From the NCBI RefSeq assembly GCF_003576455.2, contig NZ_CP032869.1, positions 1,054,001 to 1,118,000 of the forward strand: 64,000 nucleotides of DNA, given 5' to 3'. The DNA is from Mucilaginibacter celer (lineage in GTDB: Bacteria; Bacteroidota; Bacteroidia; Sphingobacteriales; Sphingobacteriaceae). Below the pieces are notes generated by a model. The model was not told where the DNA came from. It was given only the letters and a program-made list of their open reading frames with translations, and did not search any database. The position numbers and the translations under genes are program-made. Positions 6,407 through 61,849 of this stretch are shown here, one piece after another (the stretch's first letter is position 1; every line of letters starts with the position of its first letter).

Positions 6407-7978
6407 TTATAAATCAATTTTGTTAATTAAATCCAACGCCGAGCCGCCTTTTTCAATCGCTGCCAATACATCGAAAACTTTATCGCTCCAGCCGGCAATC
6501 AGGTATACATCGTTTTGCAGCAGTTGCAAAGGCGTTTGGCCATAGCCTGCCAAATCGAACAGGTACAATTTTGCTGTTGGCGCGATGGTTCGTTTGTATT
6601 GAACCCATAGTTTCTGGATATCATCCGGACCGAAATTGCTGTTCCACAACTGGCAATCGGTAAATAGCATTACCTTATCCATTTGTACGCGGCGATCAAT
6701 CAGATCACGGATTACCAGGTAACCGTTGGTTGAATAACCCACTTCGCCTTCGCGGCGGTAAAACTCCTGTACATTGCCCAATATATTATGGCGCGGCACG
6801 GCAATGGTCTTCCAGTAGTTGCCAAACATACCCACTTCAACATTGTTACACCGCGATTGCAGCAGCATAGCCAGCATCAAACCGATATCGTACAACAATA
6901 CTTTCGATTTTGCCGAGATTGGTTTCTGCATTGAGCCCGAAACGTCGCAGGCCAGCAGCACGCGGGTGTTTTCGTCAAAGCCACGGATGTTGGCAGCGCT
7001 TGCCTGTACCGCTTTTTCCAAAGCGTCCAGCAATTCGCCGGTATAGCCTTTGTTGCCTGTTATGGCGGCTTTGGCGACCCTTGCAATGTTTTGCACCGCG
7101 TTAGTTGGTGTTATCAGCTCGCGGTAAGCAGCCAGGTAACGGAACGGGAACTGTTTGGCTTTGGCCACCTGCTCGCCATCGCTTAGGGTTGCGCATACTT
7201 TTTTAAAGTGCGCATAGCTTACGCCCGCATCCTGTATGTTACGCAGGTTACGCAATAAAGCCATGTAGCCCACTTTACCGCTATCTATCAGTTGTTCCCA
7301 CTTAGCGCGGAACGCGATAGCTTTAGCTTCAACGCTATCAAAATTTAGTTGACCTAAAGCTGATAGCTCCGTTTCCCATGTATAAGGCGCTTGCAAATTG
7401 TTAGCCACTATTTTGTTAAATATCAGCTGCTGCAAATCATCCTTGGCACGTGGGTGAACCAGGAACAGGGCGTCGCGCAGTTTAACAGCACCATCGCGGT
7501 TATATTTGGCAAATTGGTACTCATCAAAGCGGTTAAACGCCAGCGATAAACCTTTTTGCATCTGTTTAGATAAGCGGTTTAACTTTTTAGCACCGTTACG
7601 CTGGTTCAACACCTGGTAGCAGGCCAGCAATTCGGTAATTTCATCCGCACGGCCAACCACGCCATCCGTAACCCGGGCAACCAGATCGTCGCCCGAGTGC
7701 AGTTTAGCCAATTCGGTAGCCAGCACCAGCGGTACCGAACGCATATACATTTTAGTACGGGCATACACCGCCAGCTTACCCACAAATACCGGGTTGCATT
7801 GTGCTATCAGTTTGCGCAGGCGTTCCATACGTGCTTCATCTTTTTCGTAAAAGGTATCGTTTAAGCTCCAGGTTACTACCGTGGTGTACAGTTCCATCTC
7901 GGCGCTCATTTTAAAAGCTTTCGCGCCTTCATAATTTGTAACGATGGTTTTTACTTTGCTTAACAGGTTGAATTTCAT
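6407..7978 (-). CDS. rsr: Ro60/Rsr-like TROVE domain protein
   Basis: 523 residues from the ATG at 7978, preferred over the upstream start at 8011 because AGGAGG lies 6 bases ahead of it, a strong ribosome site for this phylum. The N-terminal two thirds is a TROVE domain (KAFKMSAEMELYTTVVTW, VGKLAVYARTKMYMRSVP, VARVTDGVVGRADEI), the HEAT-like ring that holds misfolded RNA ends and Y RNAs. The C-terminal third is a vWA fold with the MIDAS motif LLACDVSGSMQ and LFTDCQLW. Bacterial orthologues act with Y RNAs and exonucleases in RNA quality control and stress survival. Here the gene is followed on the same strand by seven Y-RNA-like units. No rtcB is in the window. Family assignment is firm; the RNA partners are inferred from position and structure. 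Confidence 0.92.
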   Translation of the reverse strand: MKFNLLSKVKTIVTNYEGAKAFKMSAEMELYTTVVTWSLNDTFYEKDEARMERLRKLIAQCNPVFVGKLAVYARTKMYMRSVPLVLATELAKLHSGDDLVARVTDGVVGRADEITELLACYQVLNQRNGAKKLNRLSKQMQKGLSLAFNRFDEYQFAKYNRDGAVKLRDALFLVHPRAKDDLQQLIFNKIVANNLQAPYTWETELSALGQLNFDSVEAKAIAFRAKWEQLIDSGKVGYMALLRNLRNIQDAGVSYAHFKKVCATLSDGEQVAKAKQFPFRYLAAYRELITPTNAVQNIARVAKAAITGNKGYTGELLDALEKAVQASAANIRGFDENTRVLLACDVSGSMQKPISAKSKVLLYDIGLMLAMLLQSRCNNVEVGMFGNYWKTIAVPRHNILGNVQEFYRREGEVGYSTNGYLVIRDLIDRRVQMDKVMLFTDCQLWNSNFGPDDIQKLWVQYKRTIAPTAKLYLFDLAGYGQTPLQLLQNDVYLIAGWSDKVFDVLAAIEKGGSALDLINKIDL

Positions 7979-8070: not shown

Positions 8071-8385
8071 TGAACCGGGGTTTTGGGGGGATTTTTATTT
8101 CTGGGATTACACCGATTGATTTTTGATTACGCCGATTTTGACCGTTGATGATTTTTAATTTCGTTGATTGCGCTGATTTTTTTGTCTGAACTCGAATTTT
8201 TAGAATTAAGGAACTAACGGAATGCCAGGCAAATTCGAAAAATTCTTTCATTCGAAAAATTTGGGTTCAGACAGAAAAATCCTGCTAATTCCAAAAATCC
8301 CCCCAAATCCCGGTTCAGACAATCAATCGGTGTAATCCCAGAAATAAAATCAGCGAAATCAACGTAATCAAAAAAATCAACGGTA
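8071..8385. repeat. Interspersed repeat, copy 1 (imperfect palindrome)
   Basis: Noncoding repeat with the phrases TCTGAACCGGG, ATTACACCGATTGATTTTTG, CGATTTTGACCGTTGAT and TTGATTGCGCTGATTTTT. The second half repeats these as reverse complement (AAATCCCGGTTCAGACAATC, AATCAGCGAAATCAACG), so the unit is a large imperfect inverted repeat. Other copies: 11403-11722, 18840-19107 and a copy split by the IS3 element (26004-26067 plus 27513-27785). No reading frame is conserved between copies. Confidence 0.8.
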
Positions 8386-8425
8386 ATATTTTTTCATAAT
8401 TATTTTTTAATTTAAATATTGTTTG

Positions 8426-8433
8426 TATACTTG
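8426..8433 (+). promoter_or_regulatory. Promoter -7 element of the leader/tRNA operon
   Basis: TATACTTG matches the Bacteroidota -7 consensus TAnnTTTG at 7 of 8 positions. Transcription would start about 5 bases downstream, at or next to the ATG at 8438, so the leader frame may be translated from a leaderless message. The -33 region is AT-rich without a clear TTTG. Confidence 0.5.
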
Positions 8434-8437
8434 CGTC

Positions 8438-8497
8438 ATGAAAGCAACAATATGTATACAGTGTCCATCACCCATACCGATTTATCGGAGGAGATAG
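8438..8497 (+). CDS. Leader peptide rich in Ile, Cys and Pro (putative attenuator)
   Basis: The 19-residue frame MKATICIQCPSPIPIYRRR ends in TAG. It holds three ATA plus one ATT (Ile), two TGT (Cys), and CCA, CCC and CCG (Pro): nine of 19 residues. The downstream genes are tRNA-Pro(UGG), tRNA-Ile(UAU) and tRNA-Cys(GCA), the same three identities, and UAU reads ATA exactly. A terminator lies between the two. The layout matches ribosome-mediated attenuation as in amino-acid biosynthetic operons: a ribosome stalled on these codons would leave GGAGGA (8487-8492) free to pair with TCCTCT (8536-8541) and break the terminator. Peptide and codons are direct reading; the control function is inference. 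Confidence 0.65.
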   Translation: MKATICIQCPSPIPIYRRR

Positions 8498-8499
8498 CT

Positions 8500-8511
8500 A
8501 TGTATATATAG
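8500..8511 (+). CDS. Three-codon minigene (Met-Tyr-Ile) behind a strong ribosome site
   Basis: ATG TAT ATA TAG, preceded by GGAGGAG (8487-8493) at a 6-base gap. The ribosome site overlaps the end and stop codon of the leader peptide and is also the proposed anti-terminator strand. The last sense codon is ATA, read by the tRNA-Ile(UAU) encoded downstream. Such a minigene could sense that tRNA or hold ribosomes on the leader. It is short enough to be chance. Confidence 0.35.
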   Translation: MYI

Positions 8512-8530
8512 TAAGTATATAACACATTCG

Positions 8531-8566
8531 AAAAATCCTCTTAGATAAAAACTAAGGGGATTTTTT
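8531..8566 (+). terminator. Attenuator: intrinsic terminator ahead of the tRNA genes
   Basis: Stem of 14 bp (8531-8544 with 8552-8565, one G-U), 7-base loop, six T at 8561-8566. It ends only 7 bases before tRNA-Pro, so it would stop transcription before the tRNA genes. The ascending strand contains TCCTCT (8536-8541), which can pair instead with GGAGGA (8487-8492) at the end of the leader frame. Confidence 0.75.
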
Positions 8567-8573
8567 GCGTTTT

Positions 8574-8647
8574 AGGGTAGTATATCAATTGGTCAGATTA
8601 CCACATTTGGGATGTGGAGGCTCCCGGTTCGAGTCCGGGTTACCCTA
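8574..8647 (+). tRNA. tRNA-Pro(UGG)
   Basis: Full 74-base cloverleaf: acceptor AGGGTAG/TTACCCT (one G-U), D-arm TATC/GATT with a U-U at the outer pair, anticodon arm CCACA-TTTGGGA-TGTGG with anticodon TGG, variable loop AGGCT, T-arm CCCGG-TTCGAGT-CCGGG, discriminator A. CCA is not encoded. The 5' AGGG acceptor is unlike usual bacterial tRNA-Pro (CGGGA...), which suggests an accessory or phage-type tRNA. Confidence 0.85.
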
Positions 8648-8660
8648 CTGATTTATAGCT

Positions 8661-8733
8661 GGAAATGTAGCTCAATGGTTAGAGCAGCACCCTTATACGG
8701 TGTCGGTTAAAGGTTCAAGTCCTTTTATTTCCA
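8661..8733 (+). tRNA. tRNA-Ile(UAU)
   Basis: 73-base cloverleaf: acceptor GGAAATG/TATTTCC, D-arm GCTC-AATGGTTA-GAGC, anticodon arm GCACC-CTTATAC-GGTGT with anticodon TAT at 8694-8696, variable loop CGGTT, T-arm AAAGG-TTCAAGT-CCTTT, discriminator A, no encoded CCA. Most bacteria read AUA with tRNA-Ile(CAU) carrying lysidine. A UAU anticodon is uncommon and mostly seen in accessory sets. It matches the three ATA codons of the leader peptide. Confidence 0.88.
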
Positions 8734-8740
8734 CATACAG

Positions 8741-8814
8741 GGCCGGTTGCCCGAGTGGTTCAAGGGAGTCCTCTGCAAAAGGAATGTTCGCAAGTTCGAA
8801 TCTTGTACCGGCCT
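8741..8814 (+). tRNA. tRNA-Cys(GCA)
   Basis: 74-base cloverleaf: acceptor GGCCGGT/ACCGGCC, short D-stem CCC/GGG, anticodon arm GTCCT-CTGCAAA-AGGAA (one outer mismatch) with anticodon GCA, T-arm GCAAG-TTCGAAT-CTTGT, and discriminator T as in tRNA-Cys. A run of T directly follows (8816-8821) and probably ends the operon. No CCA is encoded. Confidence 0.87.
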
Positions 8815-8821
8815 CTTTTTT

Positions 8822-17187: not shown

Positions 17188-17736
17188 CTATGCCTGGCTA
17201 ATAAATTGCGGCGGAACCTCGTCGGTAAGCCATACTTTATTTTCTGAAAGGTAAAATTTGTAGCCCTCTTTATGCATTTCGCCGGTCAGGATGGTTAATA
17301 CTACCGGTTTGCCATGCCTGCCACCTACGTTTACGGCTGTGTCTGTATCGATGCTTAAATGCACATGCTGCCGGCTGCGCTTTTCCAGTCCGTTTTGCAT
17401 AATGCTTTCTACCGAGCTTGCGGCTGTTCCATGATACAATACATCGGGCGGAGTTTGCGGGGCGTAACCCAGTTCCACCTCAACCGAGTGGCCCTGGCTT
17501 GCACGGATATTCAGTTTATCATCGCTAAAGGCAAAGCGCTTTTTGGCGTTGGTATCTACCACGTGTTCCAGCGCCTCAAGGGTTACATTGTTGCCGTATG
17601 CATTTAACTTGTTTAACAGTTCGGCAACTGGTACCCAGCCTTGCTCATCAAGTGTAATTCCTATTTCTTCGGGTTTGTGGCGCAATACAAGGCTTAAAAA
17701 TTTGCTAAGGTTTGTGGTTTCTTTTTCGGTTAACAT
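17188..17736 (-). CDS. kptA: RNA 2'-phosphotransferase KptA/Tpt1
   Basis: 182 residues, standard length. Family motifs: LSKFLSLVLRHKPEEIGI, LDEQGWVPVAELL, IRASQGHSVEV, DVLYHGTAASSVESI, RQHVHLSIDTDTAVNVGGRH. The enzyme moves an internal 2'-phosphate from RNA to NAD+, the last step after ligation of cleaved tRNA by fungal or plant-type ligases. In bacteria its natural substrate is uncertain. It lies 37 bases downstream of the WYL regulator on the same strand and 9 kb from Ro60 and the tRNA operon. Confidence 0.93.
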   Translation of the reverse strand: MLTEKETTNLSKFLSLVLRHKPEEIGITLDEQGWVPVAELLNKLNAYGNNVTLEALEHVVDTNAKKRFAFSDDKLNIRASQGHSVEVELGYAPQTPPDVLYHGTAASSVESIMQNGLEKRSRQHVHLSIDTDTAVNVGGRHGKPVVLTILTGEMHKEGYKFYLSENKVWLTDEVPPQFISQA

Positions 17737-17773: not shown

Positions 17774-18835
17774 TTACTCATCCAGCAAACTGCTCAGGTT
17801 TTTGCCCTGAGGTATCGGGCTGTCGGCTGCGTAGTGACCTAATGCTTTCTGTAGTTGCTGTTTTATCTGCTTAACCAATATCCGCGGACTAATCACTTTT
17901 AGCTTGGCACCAAAACCCAGCAGCTCGCGCTCCAATTCAAAATTCATAATCACCTTTATGCTGAATAACTTACCGTCGGCCTCTTCCCTCAGCAGCTTTT
18001 GGGTATGGTGCAATGGTTTGGTAATTACATAGGGTGCGTTGGCTTTATCTATCCAAAATATAATGGTGGTATCCCGCTGCCCCGGCGACTTGGTTACTCC
18101 CAATGCGTCATCATAATAGGTGGCGAGGTTGATGGTTTTGTTTTCGATATAGTCCTCGTCATGCAGTTCAATGGTTTGAATCCTGTCGAGCGCCAAAGTA
18201 AGCAAGGGTTTGTTTCGCTGATGCGACAGCCCGAGTACAAACCAACGGTTCCGGTACTCTTTCAATAAATATCCGCTAAAACAAAAGGTACTTGCATCCC
18301 TGGCTTTGAACGATTGATAGGTTACACACATAGTACGTTTAGCCACAATTGCCTTGCGGATCACCTCAATCCATTCAAGCCCTTTCAGGTTATCATTTTT
18401 TTCAAAATCAACCACCGGTACGCTATGCGTTTTCTGGCTGTAAATCTTATCTTCCAGCCGGGTGACCATCTCGCTGATATCAGTAAAATGACTGAAACCC
18501 TTAAATTGCTGCAGCAAGCCCGCCACCTCGCCAAGCACCTGTATGTCCTGGTTGTTGATAGGGATATTGGTGATACTGTAGCCTTTATCGGCGTAGGTAT
18601 AGTATTTTTTATCTACCACAACAATCGGAGCCTCATAACCCAGTTTGTTGCTGCGCATCATCTCTATATCAGCCTGTACCGTACGGCGGCTTACTCCGCT
18701 GTCAATGCCCTGGTATTCGTACAGGGCTTCGGAGCAGGCTTCTATTAAATCGTCCAGCGTCCATTGTTTGCGGCGGTTTTGCAGGCAGCTATCTATGGTT
18801 CGGTAGCGGATGAGTGCGTTGCGGTTTACAGGCAT
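17774..18835 (-). CDS. WYL-domain transcriptional regulator
   Basis: 353 residues: N-terminal winged helix (IRYRTIDSCLQNRRKQWTLD, GVSRRTVQADIEMMR), then a WYL domain (about 150-240) with GYLLKEYRNRWFVLGL, and a C-terminal WCX-like extension. WYL proteins sense small ligands or nucleic acid ends and often control defence and RNA-repair genes. It probably forms an operon with kptA downstream. The 12-mer CACTGCGCAAAT 300 bases upstream recurs in the Ro60 promoter. Confidence 0.9.
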   Translation of the reverse strand: MPVNRNALIRYRTIDSCLQNRRKQWTLDDLIEACSEALYEYQGIDSGVSRRTVQADIEMMRSNKLGYEAPIVVVDKKYYTYADKGYSITNIPINNQDIQVLGEVAGLLQQFKGFSHFTDISEMVTRLEDKIYSQKTHSVPVVDFEKNDNLKGLEWIEVIRKAIVAKRTMCVTYQSFKARDASTFCFSGYLLKEYRNRWFVLGLSHQRNKPLLTLALDRIQTIELHDEDYIENKTINLATYYDDALGVTKSPGQRDTTIIFWIDKANAPYVITKPLHHTQKLLREEADGKLFSIKVIMNFELERELLGFGAKLKVISPRILVKQIKQQLQKALGHYAADSPIPQGKNLSSLLDE

Positions 18836-38605: not shown

Positions 38606-39445
38606 TTAGTTTTTAAGGTAGTTCTCAACTACGACTCTATCATTTTGTAAAAACGCTTTTTTTATTTTGACATGATTTAGTTCGCTTGGAATGGAAGATA
38701 ATAATGAGTCTTCATTCTCCTTTGATATTTTAAAACCTAATATGATTTCTTTTACGGCATCAGGATGGATTACTGATATTCTTTCCGCTTTTGTAAATGG
38801 ATTTAATCTGAATTTGAAAGCACGGTACTCCTTTTCGAAGCTCCATTTATTGTGTTTGTTAAATACTTGTAGCAATGCTTGATTTATATAAGAATGTTTT
38901 GGAAATGGATGAATAATTGGTAACTCATCGTGATAAATGACTTTGCCTCCCGAATTGCAAATTTGTGGGAGCATAAGTTTTGTATCGAAGCCAATACAAA
39001 AGCCAGTGTACATACTTGAATATTTTTCCCACATTCTTGTTTCGCAAGGGTATTCTGTAAGGCTTAAAACACCGGTCCGTTCGCAATATTGGTTGAAGCT
39101 TTCTTGTTGCATTTGCGCAATGAAATCTTTGTTTCTAACTTGGGTGTTATTTGACCAATATATTGCATACTCCATGTGTTGTTCAATTGTATATTGGGGA
39201 TTTTTATATTGAGAATCTCGGTAAAATTTATTCAAGATGTCCTCCTCGGTGAGTAAATCCCATCTTGTTGGATTTTTACAATCAAGTTCATCCTCAAATT
39301 GATTGGGAGCTGCAAAGTAGACTTCTCTCTGTGTTATAATTTTTTTATGTGAGTCATTATTCCAATCTCTATATTTATAAACCATAGGCGGCATTTCAAA
39401 ATCCCGTAGTGAGATTATTTCTGGTTTTGATATTTCTAAATCCAT
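38606..39445 (-). CDS. DUF2971 protein inserted in the NAD operon
   Basis: 279 residues from MDLEISKPEI. DUF2971 features: MVYKYRDWNNDSHKKIITQR, VYFAAPNQFEDELDCKNP, GVLSLTEYPCETRMWEKYSS, YTGFCIGFDTKL, KEYRAFKF. The family is frequent among accessory and defence genes, function unknown. It sits between nadM and nadV with 4-base gaps at both ends, and the 16-base sequence AAAAACTAAAGCCATG occurs at both junctions. It is more AT-rich than the genes around it, suggesting later insertion. Confidence 0.85.
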   Translation of the reverse strand: MDLEISKPEIISLRDFEMPPMVYKYRDWNNDSHKKIITQREVYFAAPNQFEDELDCKNPTRWDLLTEEDILNKFYRDSQYKNPQYTIEQHMEYAIYWSNNTQVRNKDFIAQMQQESFNQYCERTGVLSLTEYPCETRMWEKYSSMYTGFCIGFDTKLMLPQICNSGGKVIYHDELPIIHPFPKHSYINQALLQVFNKHNKWSFEKEYRAFKFRLNPFTKAERISVIHPDAVKEIILGFKISKENEDSLLSSIPSELNHVKIKKAFLQNDRVVVENYLKN

Positions 39446-59293: not shown

Positions 59294-61849
59294 ATGACAG
59301 TTATTTCCCATCCCCATTACGATCTGTTAAAAAGGAAGTTACTTGCCGAAGCCGGATTTAAAAGCATCAGCCCTGCCGATTGCAGGGCCATATCGGTACT
59401 GGTTACCAACAAAACCAGGCATTGTATAAGCGAAACCACGCTGAAACGCATTTATGGGTTTGCATTGAGCAGATTTAATCCATCAGGTTTTACGCTTGAT
59501 GTGCTTGCGCAATATTGTAACTACAATAGCTGGAAGGCCTTTTGCGATATAAAGATTCCTGATGAAACCGAACCGGCAGTTAATGATTTTGATTGGCAGA
59601 TCTTTCAAAAAAAACTCTCTAATGTCACAAATTCAACCCTGCAAACAATCAGGAACCGGTCTGGTATTCCTTATCATTACACTATAAAAAGAGAGCTGGT
59701 AGGGGCTCATTTAAATGAGTTTATCCATTCGGCACATACAAGCACTGTACTTTGTGCTCCTGCCGGATATGGAAAAACGCTGGCCCTGTGCCAATGGGTT
59801 GAAGAGCGAATGGAAATGAATGCCGCAGGCATGCGTAATGATGCCGTATTGTTTATAAACGGCAGCTCCCTGATTAATGCCTGGCAAAGCGGACGCAATT
59901 TGATTGAATGGGCACTTGGGCTGGGAGGCTGCTGTACCCACCAGCAATTAAATGATCTGATAAACAGAAAACAAAATAAGGGACTTAAATTTTACCTGGT
60001 TATTGATGCGTTTGATGAACATGTGCTTGGTGCCGAACAGTTTGAATTAATTTTAAACTACCTGGCAAAAGGCTTGTCGTTATATCAAAGCGAGGGCTGG
60101 CTTAAGTTTGTTTTAACCTTACGCTCATCAACCTGGATAAATTACCGCCATAAGCTTCAGGCTGATGGCAGCACCTGGTTTACCGGTTTCAGCACCGCAA
60201 ATAACGAACGCGTAAACGTGCCCCTGTTAACCTATAAGGAGGTTTGCCAGCTTTGTTTAAAAATCAGCCCGGCATTTCAAAACAATATTAGCCCCGAAAC
60301 GGCCGAAAAGCTCAGTCATCCTTTATTTTTTCAATATTACTATAAACAACACCGCGGCAATTTTACCTCCGCAAGCCTCGATAATGTTTGTTTGTATGAA
60401 TTATCATCGGCTTTTATATTTAATAATGTTTACCTGGGTAGAAATGCCGCCGAAAAGGTATTTGTTATAAAAAGTCTGGTTAGCCTGATGGATTTTAAAA
60501 AGGAGCAATATAGTGTGCCTCTGTCTGCGGCGGCTCAGCTACTTAAGCTTTATAACCAGGCCTATCGCAATTTGCTTGGGATTGGAATTTTAAAAGAAGT
60601 TACCGAAGGTGCCGATCATGACTTACAGTGTCATATTGCTTTTAATAATAATTTTTTAGAGCACAGCATAGCAAAAACAATCCTTGCAGGCACTGATAAC
60701 CGGCTTGATGCTCAATTTGTAACCTGCTTTAACAATGCTTTTGTCAATAGCGATTATAAACTGCCTATTTTAAAGTGGTGTTTGATATTTGCTATAAAAA
60801 CCGGGCAACAAAATAGTTTGGAGCACCTTACCGGCATTGATTTAAGCGCAGCCGAAAAAGCCGACATTATGTTATTTATAGGCAACCTGCTGGAGCGCGA
60901 ATGTTCATCCCTGAAAGAAAACGAACTGCTGTTGCAGTATTTTAAACAGGTTTTCAGCGGGAAGATGTTCGATTATTTTTTTAGTCTCGAACTGATTAAC
61001 CCCTCGCATAAAAAAACGCTTTTAACCATGCTAAGGTTTGAACTTTCGGCAGATCAGAAAATCATTCTTCAAAGTGCTTTAGGTATAATTGCCGTTATTC
61101 AACTCGACTTAAAGGAGTTGAAAATACGATTAGATTACTTAACCAGGTTTAGCCAGGATGATTTGGACGCCCTGGCACTTGATCCGGTAAATTGCCTCGA
61201 GGCCTTTTATGGTTTCCTGCATAATGGCATTTTTCCTCACGAAGCTTTTAACCGTATCGATCAATTATCGTTCTCAGCAGCTTTTAGCCCCGCTAAATTA
61301 AAACCATGCGCCGCCAACGATATGCTTTATATTTTGGGTGCCTACACCATGCTTATTTGCGGTGATCCTTACAAAGTGGTGCGCTTTGTGAACATGGTGA
61401 AAAACAATTACAAAACCGCTGAAATAGAGGAAGCTAAAACCCAGTTTGCCTTCTTTATCAATTTACTGCAGGCCGAGGCCTGGTATGGTGTTGGCGAAAC
61501 CGACAAAGCATTGGAATTGTTTAGCCCCATTGCCGAAACCTTTGGTGCCGATGGCAGGCAGCTAAGCCCGATAATTAAAGCACGTTTTTATAACCTTAAA
61601 ATAAAGCTGCTCATGAATACCCCACGCGAAGATCTGATCATCGAGGAACTGAAATGTATCAATGCCGTTGCCGACGATTCGGGGAATAAAATTTTAAAAA
61701 TGAACGTGTTGATGATGTTGTTGAAACACAACGGTGTACTTGATCAATACCCCTTTTTTAAACGGCAGGCCGTGCATGATCTTACCATGATCATTAACCG
61801 CAGCGGCCTTAACAGGGATAGGTTTACCGTGCCGGATGTGGTGGGGTAA
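59294..61849 (+). CDS. STAND/NACHT-like ATPase with N-terminal HTH-like domain
   Basis: 851 residues. The N-terminal 85 residues follow a pattern seen in Bacteroidota (ISETTLKRIYGFALSRFNPS, GFTLDVLAQYCNYNSWKAFC) that may be a helix-turn-helix. The NTPase core has Walker A VLCAPAGYGKTLALCQW near residue 155 and Walker B FYLVIDAFDEHVLG near 235. The C-terminal 450 residues are helical, TPR/HEAT-like. STAND proteins act as signal switches, including transcription regulators and anti-phage sensors. It sits just beyond the exopolysaccharide cluster and behind its box family, so it may be a regulator of the cluster; this is inference. Confidence 0.7.
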   Translation: MTVISHPHYDLLKRKLLAEAGFKSISPADCRAISVLVTNKTRHCISETTLKRIYGFALSRFNPSGFTLDVLAQYCNYNSWKAFCDIKIPDETEPAVNDFDWQIFQKKLSNVTNSTLQTIRNRSGIPYHYTIKRELVGAHLNEFIHSAHTSTVLCAPAGYGKTLALCQWVEERMEMNAAGMRNDAVLFINGSSLINAWQSGRNLIEWALGLGGCCTHQQLNDLINRKQNKGLKFYLVIDAFDEHVLGAEQFELILNYLAKGLSLYQSEGWLKFVLTLRSSTWINYRHKLQADGSTWFTGFSTANNERVNVPLLTYKEVCQLCLKISPAFQNNISPETAEKLSHPLFFQYYYKQHRGNFTSASLDNVCLYELSSAFIFNNVYLGRNAAEKVFVIKSLVSLMDFKKEQYSVPLSAAAQLLKLYNQAYRNLLGIGILKEVTEGADHDLQCHIAFNNNFLEHSIAKTILAGTDNRLDAQFVTCFNNAFVNSDYKLPILKWCLIFAIKTGQQNSLEHLTGIDLSAAEKADIMLFIGNLLERECSSLKENELLLQYFKQVFSGKMFDYFFSLELINPSHKKTLLTMLRFELSADQKIILQSALGIIAVIQLDLKELKIRLDYLTRFSQDDLDALALDPVNCLEAFYGFLHNGIFPHEAFNRIDQLSFSAAFSPAKLKPCAANDMLYILGAYTMLICGDPYKVVRFVNMVKNNYKTAEIEEAKTQFAFFINLLQAEAWYGVGETDKALELFSPIAETFGADGRQLSPIIKARFYNLKIKLLMNTPREDLIIEELKCINAVADDSGNKILKMNVLMMLLKHNGVLDQYPFFKRQAVHDLTMIINRSGLNRDRFTVPDVVG

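Follow-up and report, generated by a model that had tools for sequence, protein, structure and literature searches.

A putative coding-leader attenuator precedes tRNA genes that decode the leader's own codons in Mucilaginibacter and relatives

Introduction

Attenuators of the trp and his type combine a short leader gene, whose control codons match the product of the operon, with alternative antiterminator and terminator hairpins and a further hairpin that hides the antiterminator. T-box riboswitches sense tRNA charging and control a terminator, binding the tRNA directly and without translation. tRNA genes themselves are usually regarded as constitutive or growth-rate controlled. Ribosome-mediated transcriptional attenuation is described for BmrC/BmrD of Bacillus subtilis (PMC4191407), there for a drug transporter and in response to antibiotics. 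For a flavobacterium, one report gives 5.5% leaderless mRNAs and hints of attenuation by leader peptides located in front of amino-acid biosynthesis operons (PMC9723704), so that, going by that report, both ingredients exist in the phylum. In the RNA repair operon rsr-yrlBA-rtcBA, RtcR is reported to bind tRNA fragments ending in a 2',3'-cyclic phosphate (PMC7790460), and phage tRNAs are reported to evade host defences that target tRNAs (PMC10264068).

Here we analyse a locus within a 64,000-nucleotide stretch of Mucilaginibacter celer DNA, hereafter the window, taken from a genome of 7.15 Mb in a single contig. A leader frame, a terminator and genes for tRNA-Pro(UGG), tRNA-Ile(UAU) and tRNA-Cys(GCA) follow one another head to tail. 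The arrangement resembles trp and his attenuators in its short leader gene with matched control codons, its alternative hairpins and its further hairpin. However, the product is a set of tRNA genes of the same identities rather than biosynthetic or synthetase genes, several amino acids would be sensed together, and translation would start almost where transcription is predicted to begin. As in a T-box, tRNA charging would govern a terminator, but a translation-based reading is predicted, and the T-box covariance model found no match at the locus, even at a relaxed threshold. BmrC/BmrD shares the ribosome-mediated mode and differs in its product and its signal (PMC4191407). The RtcR operon as reported (PMC7790460) has Ro60, RtcB and a response to damaged tRNA in common with the present case, whereas the predicted sensor here is a ribosome on the leader and the output is replacement tRNA. 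Extra tRNAs would compensate for targeted ones, as described for phages (PMC10264068), but this array is chromosomal and stands behind an attenuator. The original prediction for this locus knew of no described case in which a coding leader controls tRNA genes of the same identities. A literature search over titles and the opening parts of abstracts, with few subscription journals and preprints covered, likewise returned no coding leader controlling tRNA genes.

Results

The features of the locus and its neighbourhood are given in Table 1. The 19-codon frame that had been placed at 8438 was confirmed by translation (M K A T I C I Q C P S P I P I Y R R R stop), including its four Ile codons (three ATA, one ATT), two Cys and three Pro codons. 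Of leader codons 5-14, a span picked post hoc, eight of ten are Pro, Cys or ATA, where codon usage in the long frames of the window predicts 7.1% (p = 2.6e-8). The same test on all 18 codons after the ATG gave p = 1.5e-5. We take the box in front of the leader to be a Bacteroidota-type -7 promoter element, and both the -7-like box and its spacing to the ATG are kept across an alignment of 43 leaders. Because the ATG stands so close behind the box, the transcript is probably nearly leaderless. The homologous frame is open in all 71 loci analysed below, and the leader alignment contains an in-frame insertion of three bases. Frame +2 is open too in 64 of the 71, so openness by itself proves little.

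Table 1. Positions of features in the window, with strand and basis or remark
Feature	Position	Strand	Remark
-7 promoter box (assumed), TATACTTG	8426-8433	+	4 nt 5' of leader ATG; conserved in the 43-leader alignment
Leader gene, MKATICIQCPSPIPIYRRR	8438-8497	+	19 codons and TAG
Control codons ATA TGT ATA CAG TGT CCA TCA CCC ATA CCG	8450-8479	+	8 of 10 are Pro, Cys or ATA
Stem P1	8456-8505	+	ATACA 8456-8460 with TGTAT 8501-8505; belongs to the ribosome-free fold
Anti-antiterminator (small) hairpin	8477-8488	+	CCGA 8477-8480 with TCGG 8485-8488
Antiterminator, 5' strand	8481-8495	+	Pairing, covariation and folding model
Antiterminator, 3' strand	8535-8549	+	Overlaps the ascending arm of the terminator
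Intrinsic terminator	8531-8566	+	Arms 8531-8544 and 8552-8565, 93% complementary
tRNA-Pro(UGG)	8574-8648	+	ARAGORN and Rfam; diverged from other tRNA-Pro(UGG) genes
tRNA-Ile(UAU)	8661-8734	+	ARAGORN and Rfam
tRNA-Cys(GCA)	8741-8815	+	ARAGORN and Rfam; diverged second copy
Ro60/Rsr homologue (TROVE and vWA_Ro60)	6407-7978	-	Divergent neighbour of the array
KptA/Tpt1 RNA 2'-phosphotransferase	17188-17736	-	Wider neighbourhood
WYL/WCX-domain regulator	17774-18835	-	Wider neighbourhood

All three tRNA genes claimed 3' of the terminator were found by both programs, the modelled end of the leader-terminator region (8567) lying 6 nt from tRNA-Pro(UGG). A further tRNA-Ile call at 60293-60381 is absent from the Rfam results and was set aside. 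A survey of the genome's tRNAs, covering stretches around 58 of 59 Rfam places, showed two tRNA-Pro(UGG) genes and one tRNA-Cys(GCA) elsewhere, with bodies quite unlike those of the array copies; the array tRNA-Pro has the anticodon arm in common with the other tRNA-Pro(UGG) genes and differs in the remainder. The array tRNA-Ile(UAU), which we assume to decode AUA without lysidine, was the only UAU gene seen there, next to Ile(GAU) and three CAU kinds, among them presumably the Ile tRNA of the lysidine type. Given their different bodies, the array tRNAs look like replacements. We rejected a phage or plasmid origin of the array: phage matches span one tRNA only (56-70 of 242 query bases, over tRNA-Ile, in the 15 listed of 33 records), and there were no plasmid matches.

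Of 60 genomes compared by DNA search, that of the window among them, 15 showed long matches; the other matches were short pieces, mostly single tRNAs. A terminator pattern run over 84,980 species genomes returned 49 stretches. A leader is present in 42 of them, from Mucilaginibacter, Pedobacter, Hufsiella, one Chitinophaga and three entries named Bacteroidetes bacterium; the terminators in the other seven stand alone or belong to ordinary tRNA genes. A covariance model built from 43 leaders matched 65 of 149 genomes of the genus Mucilaginibacter, with no match in the other 84. In samples drawn at higher ranks it matched 62 of 399 genomes (family), 41 of 300 (order) and 6 of 295 (class), in the last strongly only in the window's own genome. 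The weak class-sample matches (G056, G528, G680, G686 and G726; E 2e-4 to 9e-4) were taken as chance because the four examined, all but G686, are without tRNA genes. From 78 loci fetched, 71 were analysed. Those dropped were six weak family matches without tRNAs (L226-L231, among which L227 nonetheless has a leader-like frame) and one locus in which no leader ATG was found (L212 in G170, whose tRNA-Ile is altered too). Two unusual arrangements were seen along the way. In G036, contig C14, a decayed second copy of the array (L113) consists of a terminator and broken tRNA-Pro and tRNA-Ile genes, has no leader frame, and still yields a tRNA-Gln call. In the neighbouring genus g37, L221, L223 and L224 carry two leader-terminator units in tandem, with or without tRNAs between them.

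The first tRNA begins 3-38 nt past the terminator in 70 of 74 units. Two of the remaining four have a decayed tRNA-Pro, and two are the first units of tandem attenuators. At the Chitinophaga locus L084, outside these 74 units, the first called tRNA lies about 200 nt from the terminator. Since a gap of 3-38 nt is too short for a promoter, tRNA expression would likely need read-through of the terminator, the only evident route.

The tRNA sets differ among loci, with five main identities, Pro, Ile, Cys, Gln and Phe. A common leader core, found for example in L154, reads ATA CAA TGC TTT ATA CCC CAA (Ile Gln Cys Phe Ile Pro Gln). When leader codons were compared with tRNA identities across the homologous loci, as the original prediction had proposed, Cys agreed with few exceptions, Phe in one direction only and Gln in codon number. 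Among the 71 loci, the leader has a Cys codon in all of those with tRNA-Cys (38 of 38) and in 3 of the 33 that lack the gene (Fisher 5.7e-17). This counts control-region codons before the small hairpin, a region delimited after inspection of the data, and leaves out Cys codons inside or after the hairpin. The tRNA-Cys genes of L173 and L155, missed or mis-called by ARAGORN, were added by eye; if these two are set aside, the figures become 36 of 36 and 5 of 35. With distinct leaders only, they are 35 of 35 and 3 of 27 (p = 3e-14). The three exceptions are G108, G195 and G155, the last with an insert that interrupts its tRNA-Cys. Outside the 71, L084 goes against the rule with a Cys codon and no tRNA-Cys called, and the pattern locus L103 has neither. 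Loci lacking tRNA-Cys have AGC, CGC, CAC or ATA-CAA at the position of the Cys codon.

We also followed these changes on an rpoB tree. rpoB was found in 63 of 70 genomes, giving 62 tips with a leader (62 of the 71 loci). A Pagel test preferred dependent change of Cys codon and tRNA-Cys (LR 31.8, p = 2e-6). By Fitch counting, the gene changed 6 times, the codon 7 times and the two taken jointly 8 times; by subtraction, five of the six inferred tRNA-Cys changes coincide with a codon change. Identical control regions stand in separate parts of the tree (G100 and G036, for example), which suggests transfer of the locus, and therefore fewer independent events; leader and array may have moved as a block.

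The other amino acids follow less strictly. A Phe codon is found in 11 of 11 loci with tRNA-Phe, yet also in 17 of 60 without it (Pagel p = 0.0096). Gln codons average 2.51 in loci with tRNA-Gln versus 1.14 in those without, and are present in 17 of the 22 loci that have no tRNA-Gln. The apparent tracking by Phe and Gln codons is one-sided. Over all core codons, 395 of 582 match a tRNA of their own locus, against 339.8 +/- 6.3 when arrays are swapped among loci (2000 permutations, maximum 360). ATA accounts for 141 of 795 control-region codons, against 2.1% in the window's long frames. In a single case, G092, tRNA-Ile(GAU) is in the array and one leader ATA is ATT. The tandem leaders of genus g37 have nearly identical control codons though the tRNAs behind them differ, and are not tailored to the tRNAs that follow.

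Three divergent loci (L218, L219 and L220) have tRNA-Pro(CGG) and/or tRNA-Gln(CUG) and leaders rich in CCG and/or CAG. At these loci the sequences suggest tracking at the level of the codon besides that of the amino acid. The match of Pro(CGG) and Gln(CUG) arrays to CCG and CAG is striking in L218, and we discarded it as a general rule.

Several tRNA genes of the arrays are themselves unusual. In L189, L197, L164, L188 and L215, arrays without tRNA-Cys keep a tRNA-Cys-like gene with a changed or enlarged anticodon loop, called as tcta, ttta, Gln or Asn. These genes are perhaps decaying or changed in their reading. In L155 (G029) the anticodon loop of the array tRNA-Cys is apparently 8 nt long. 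Four tRNA genes of three genomes contain a similar insert, about 45 nt in length (CTCTTGAGC...GCGAAAAAT), at the same T-loop site after GTTCGAA: tRNA-Cys of L160 (G155), tRNA-Gln and tRNA-Asp of L154 = L076 (G105), and tRNA-Gln of L040 (G022). It could be a tiny mobile insert or intron-like. An element, GGGTAGGG, occurs within 900 nt past the terminator in 21 loci (L154, L160, L177 and L196 among them). It stands behind or inside the arrays, mostly followed by a palindrome like AAAGAAATTTCTTTA. A similar palindrome is found upstream of many leader promoters, the window's own not among them.

The original prediction had paired GGAGGA (8487-8492) with TCCTCT (8536-8541). This pairing is possible, inside a longer one whose strands are 73% complementary in the window, and compensating changes over 43 leaders support it. 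The antiterminator and the terminator are mutually exclusive, the antiterminator 3' strand being common to both. None of 200 shuffles folded as well as the RNA from leader to terminator (8438-8572; z -4.4). Across the 43 leaders, 90.0% of antiterminator cells are paired, both-sided changes occur at 4 of 12 pairs, and none of 500 shuffles scored as high on any of five covariation measures. Sliding the register by 1-3 columns lowers pairing to 52.5% or less. The small hairpin is paired in 99.4% of cells, and one of its pairs is UA in 25 leaders and CG in 18, hence paired in all 43. For P1, the inner five pairs reach 92.6% and the outer two 77.9%. P1 and the hairpin combined are 92.4% paired, with four of five covariation measures above nearly all shuffles; further pair types were no better than shuffled (452 of 500 shuffles reach the value). 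The invariance of the terminator among the 43 leaders stems partly from the search pattern used. A conserved ATG-TAT-TGA 3' of the leader was considered as a second tiny gene and rejected, P1 pairing being the better explanation.

To represent a translating ribosome we used a mask extending 12 nt beyond the A-site start on transcripts ending before the descending arm of the terminator. Of the 71 leaders, 68 were modelled and three without an exact TCCTCT were left out. With the ribosome at the control codons, the antiterminator exceeded 0.5 in 68 of 68 leaders. With the ribosome at the stop codon it did so in 0 of 68, an outcome dictated by the mask itself. Without a ribosome the antiterminator was still favoured (median 0.71; above 0.5 in 44 of 68). 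The mean for the antiterminator was 0.92, versus 0.21 with shuffled linkers. At full-length equilibrium the terminator wins in every condition (median 1.00; departures in G135, G108 and G130, among 11 leaders listed), and the switch must therefore be kinetic. Classical attenuators likewise decide kinetically.

Ro60 was matched in 38 of 65 array genomes versus 14 of 84 others (hand counts; Fisher 1.3e-7); in 22 of the 65 it stands no more than 6 kb from the array. No Ro60 match was obtained in 27 of the 65, so the link is only partial. At least 30 of 65 array genomes have RtcB no more than 25 kb from the array, and at least 35 have Ro60 or RtcB within that distance. The window's own genome (G000) has a single RtcB match, at a great distance from the window. 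When neighbour families were counted without preselection, Ro60 came top (21 loci), followed by RtcB (10), level with one uncharacterised family (10); the RtcB neighbour family was named from sequence, and the family was confirmed for other RtcB copies. In G154 the array stands between RtcB and Ro60, in an island that also holds KptA, WYL, a HEPN protein and two RlaP. At 38606-39445 the window encodes a protein matching the candidate defence family PDC-S31 (PADLOC, E 2.3e-104). In the leader region 8380-8572 no Rfam family, Y RNA included, reached its gathering score, a threshold that a divergent Y RNA could escape. Y RNA and T-box readings of the leader were rejected, being without Rfam support.

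Discussion

We consider it probable that these tRNA genes undergo ribosome-mediated attenuation by their own codons, a stall being predicted to break the terminator and switch the tRNAs on. The original prediction had read the locus in this way, and Cys-codon tracking and antiterminator covariation support that reading. Transcription would begin almost at the leader ATG, with a ribosome following the polymerase. As long as charged tRNA-Pro, tRNA-Ile(AUA) and tRNA-Cys were ample, the ribosome would reach the stop codon (8495-8497) and cover the antiterminator 5' strand, and the terminator would form. If one of these charged tRNAs ran short, the ribosome would stall upstream and melt P1 and the small hairpin. 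The freed 5' strand would then pair with the 3' strand, and the polymerase would read into the tRNA genes. The new tRNAs would decode the leader's own codons, closing a negative feedback loop.

Other explanations have to be weighed against this attenuation. The leader might respond to any slowing of the ribosome, by antibiotics or general starvation, with codon identity of minor importance. That would suit the preference of the ribosome-free RNA for the antiterminator, the richness of the leaders in ATA, and the Phe and Gln codons found without a matching tRNA gene. It does not predict that Cys codons track tRNA-Cys with so few exceptions, however, and we judge it distinctly unlikely. The agreement of codons and tRNAs could also come merely from inheritance or transfer of the locus as a block, as the identical control regions across the rpoB tree and the small number of gene and codon changes in the Fitch counts would allow. 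Against this, nearly all inferred tRNA-Cys changes coincide with a codon change, several different codons occupy the Cys place where tRNA-Cys is absent, and the original agreement is left unexplained; block inheritance as the whole explanation seems to us very doubtful. It is highly improbable, in our estimate, that the leader is a separate small RNA ending at the terminator, such as a Y RNA of the neighbouring Ro60, with the tRNAs expressed independently. The leader transcript is structured, and Ro60 is the divergent neighbour in the window and stands close to the array in a third of array genomes (22 of 65), as such an RNA would lead one to expect. Yet the space between terminator and first tRNA is too small for a promoter in 70 of 74 units, the leader has no Rfam family, its codon content tracks tRNA content, and 27 of the 65 array genomes gave no Ro60 match.

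A real switch could instead answer starvation for Pro, Cys or Ile, as biosynthesis operons do. Stalling on uncharged tRNA would give identical behaviour of the leader, and clues for leader-peptide attenuation are reported at flavobacterial amino-acid operons (PMC9723704). But a lack of amino acid would not be relieved by more tRNA, the most frequent neighbours are Ro60 and RtcB, and AUA with its own tRNA-Ile(UAU) is singled out rather than Ile codons generally. We therefore regard starvation as an unlikely signal. If the tRNA genes are attenuated through their own codons, the signal is more likely to be that tRNA has been lost, through cleavage or some other damage, than that an amino acid is in short supply, since an extra tRNA is useful only if the tRNA itself is missing. 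With Ro60 or RtcB near many arrays and KptA in the window, RNA damage also fits better than starvation. A fuller proposal, to which we give about even chances, is a codon-specific sensor of tRNA loss in which the leader monitors as many as five decoding capacities (Pro, Ile-AUA, Cys, Gln and Phe) and, once a tRNA-cleaving attack has destroyed any of them, brings in divergent tRNAs to replace precisely these identities. The array would then serve as supply arm within an RNA-repair island of Ro60, RtcB, KptA and RlaP.

If our reading holds, this would be the first known attenuator that controls tRNA genes through their own codons. Translation of codons read by a set of tRNAs appears to switch that very set, so that decoding feeds back directly on the supply of tRNA. 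The variation of codons and tRNA sets over some 70 loci makes the idea testable at once, and the leader would offer a ready-made, codon-programmable sensor for tRNA shortage. It would also mean that a bacterium answers a tRNA-destroying attack by replacement as well as by repair.
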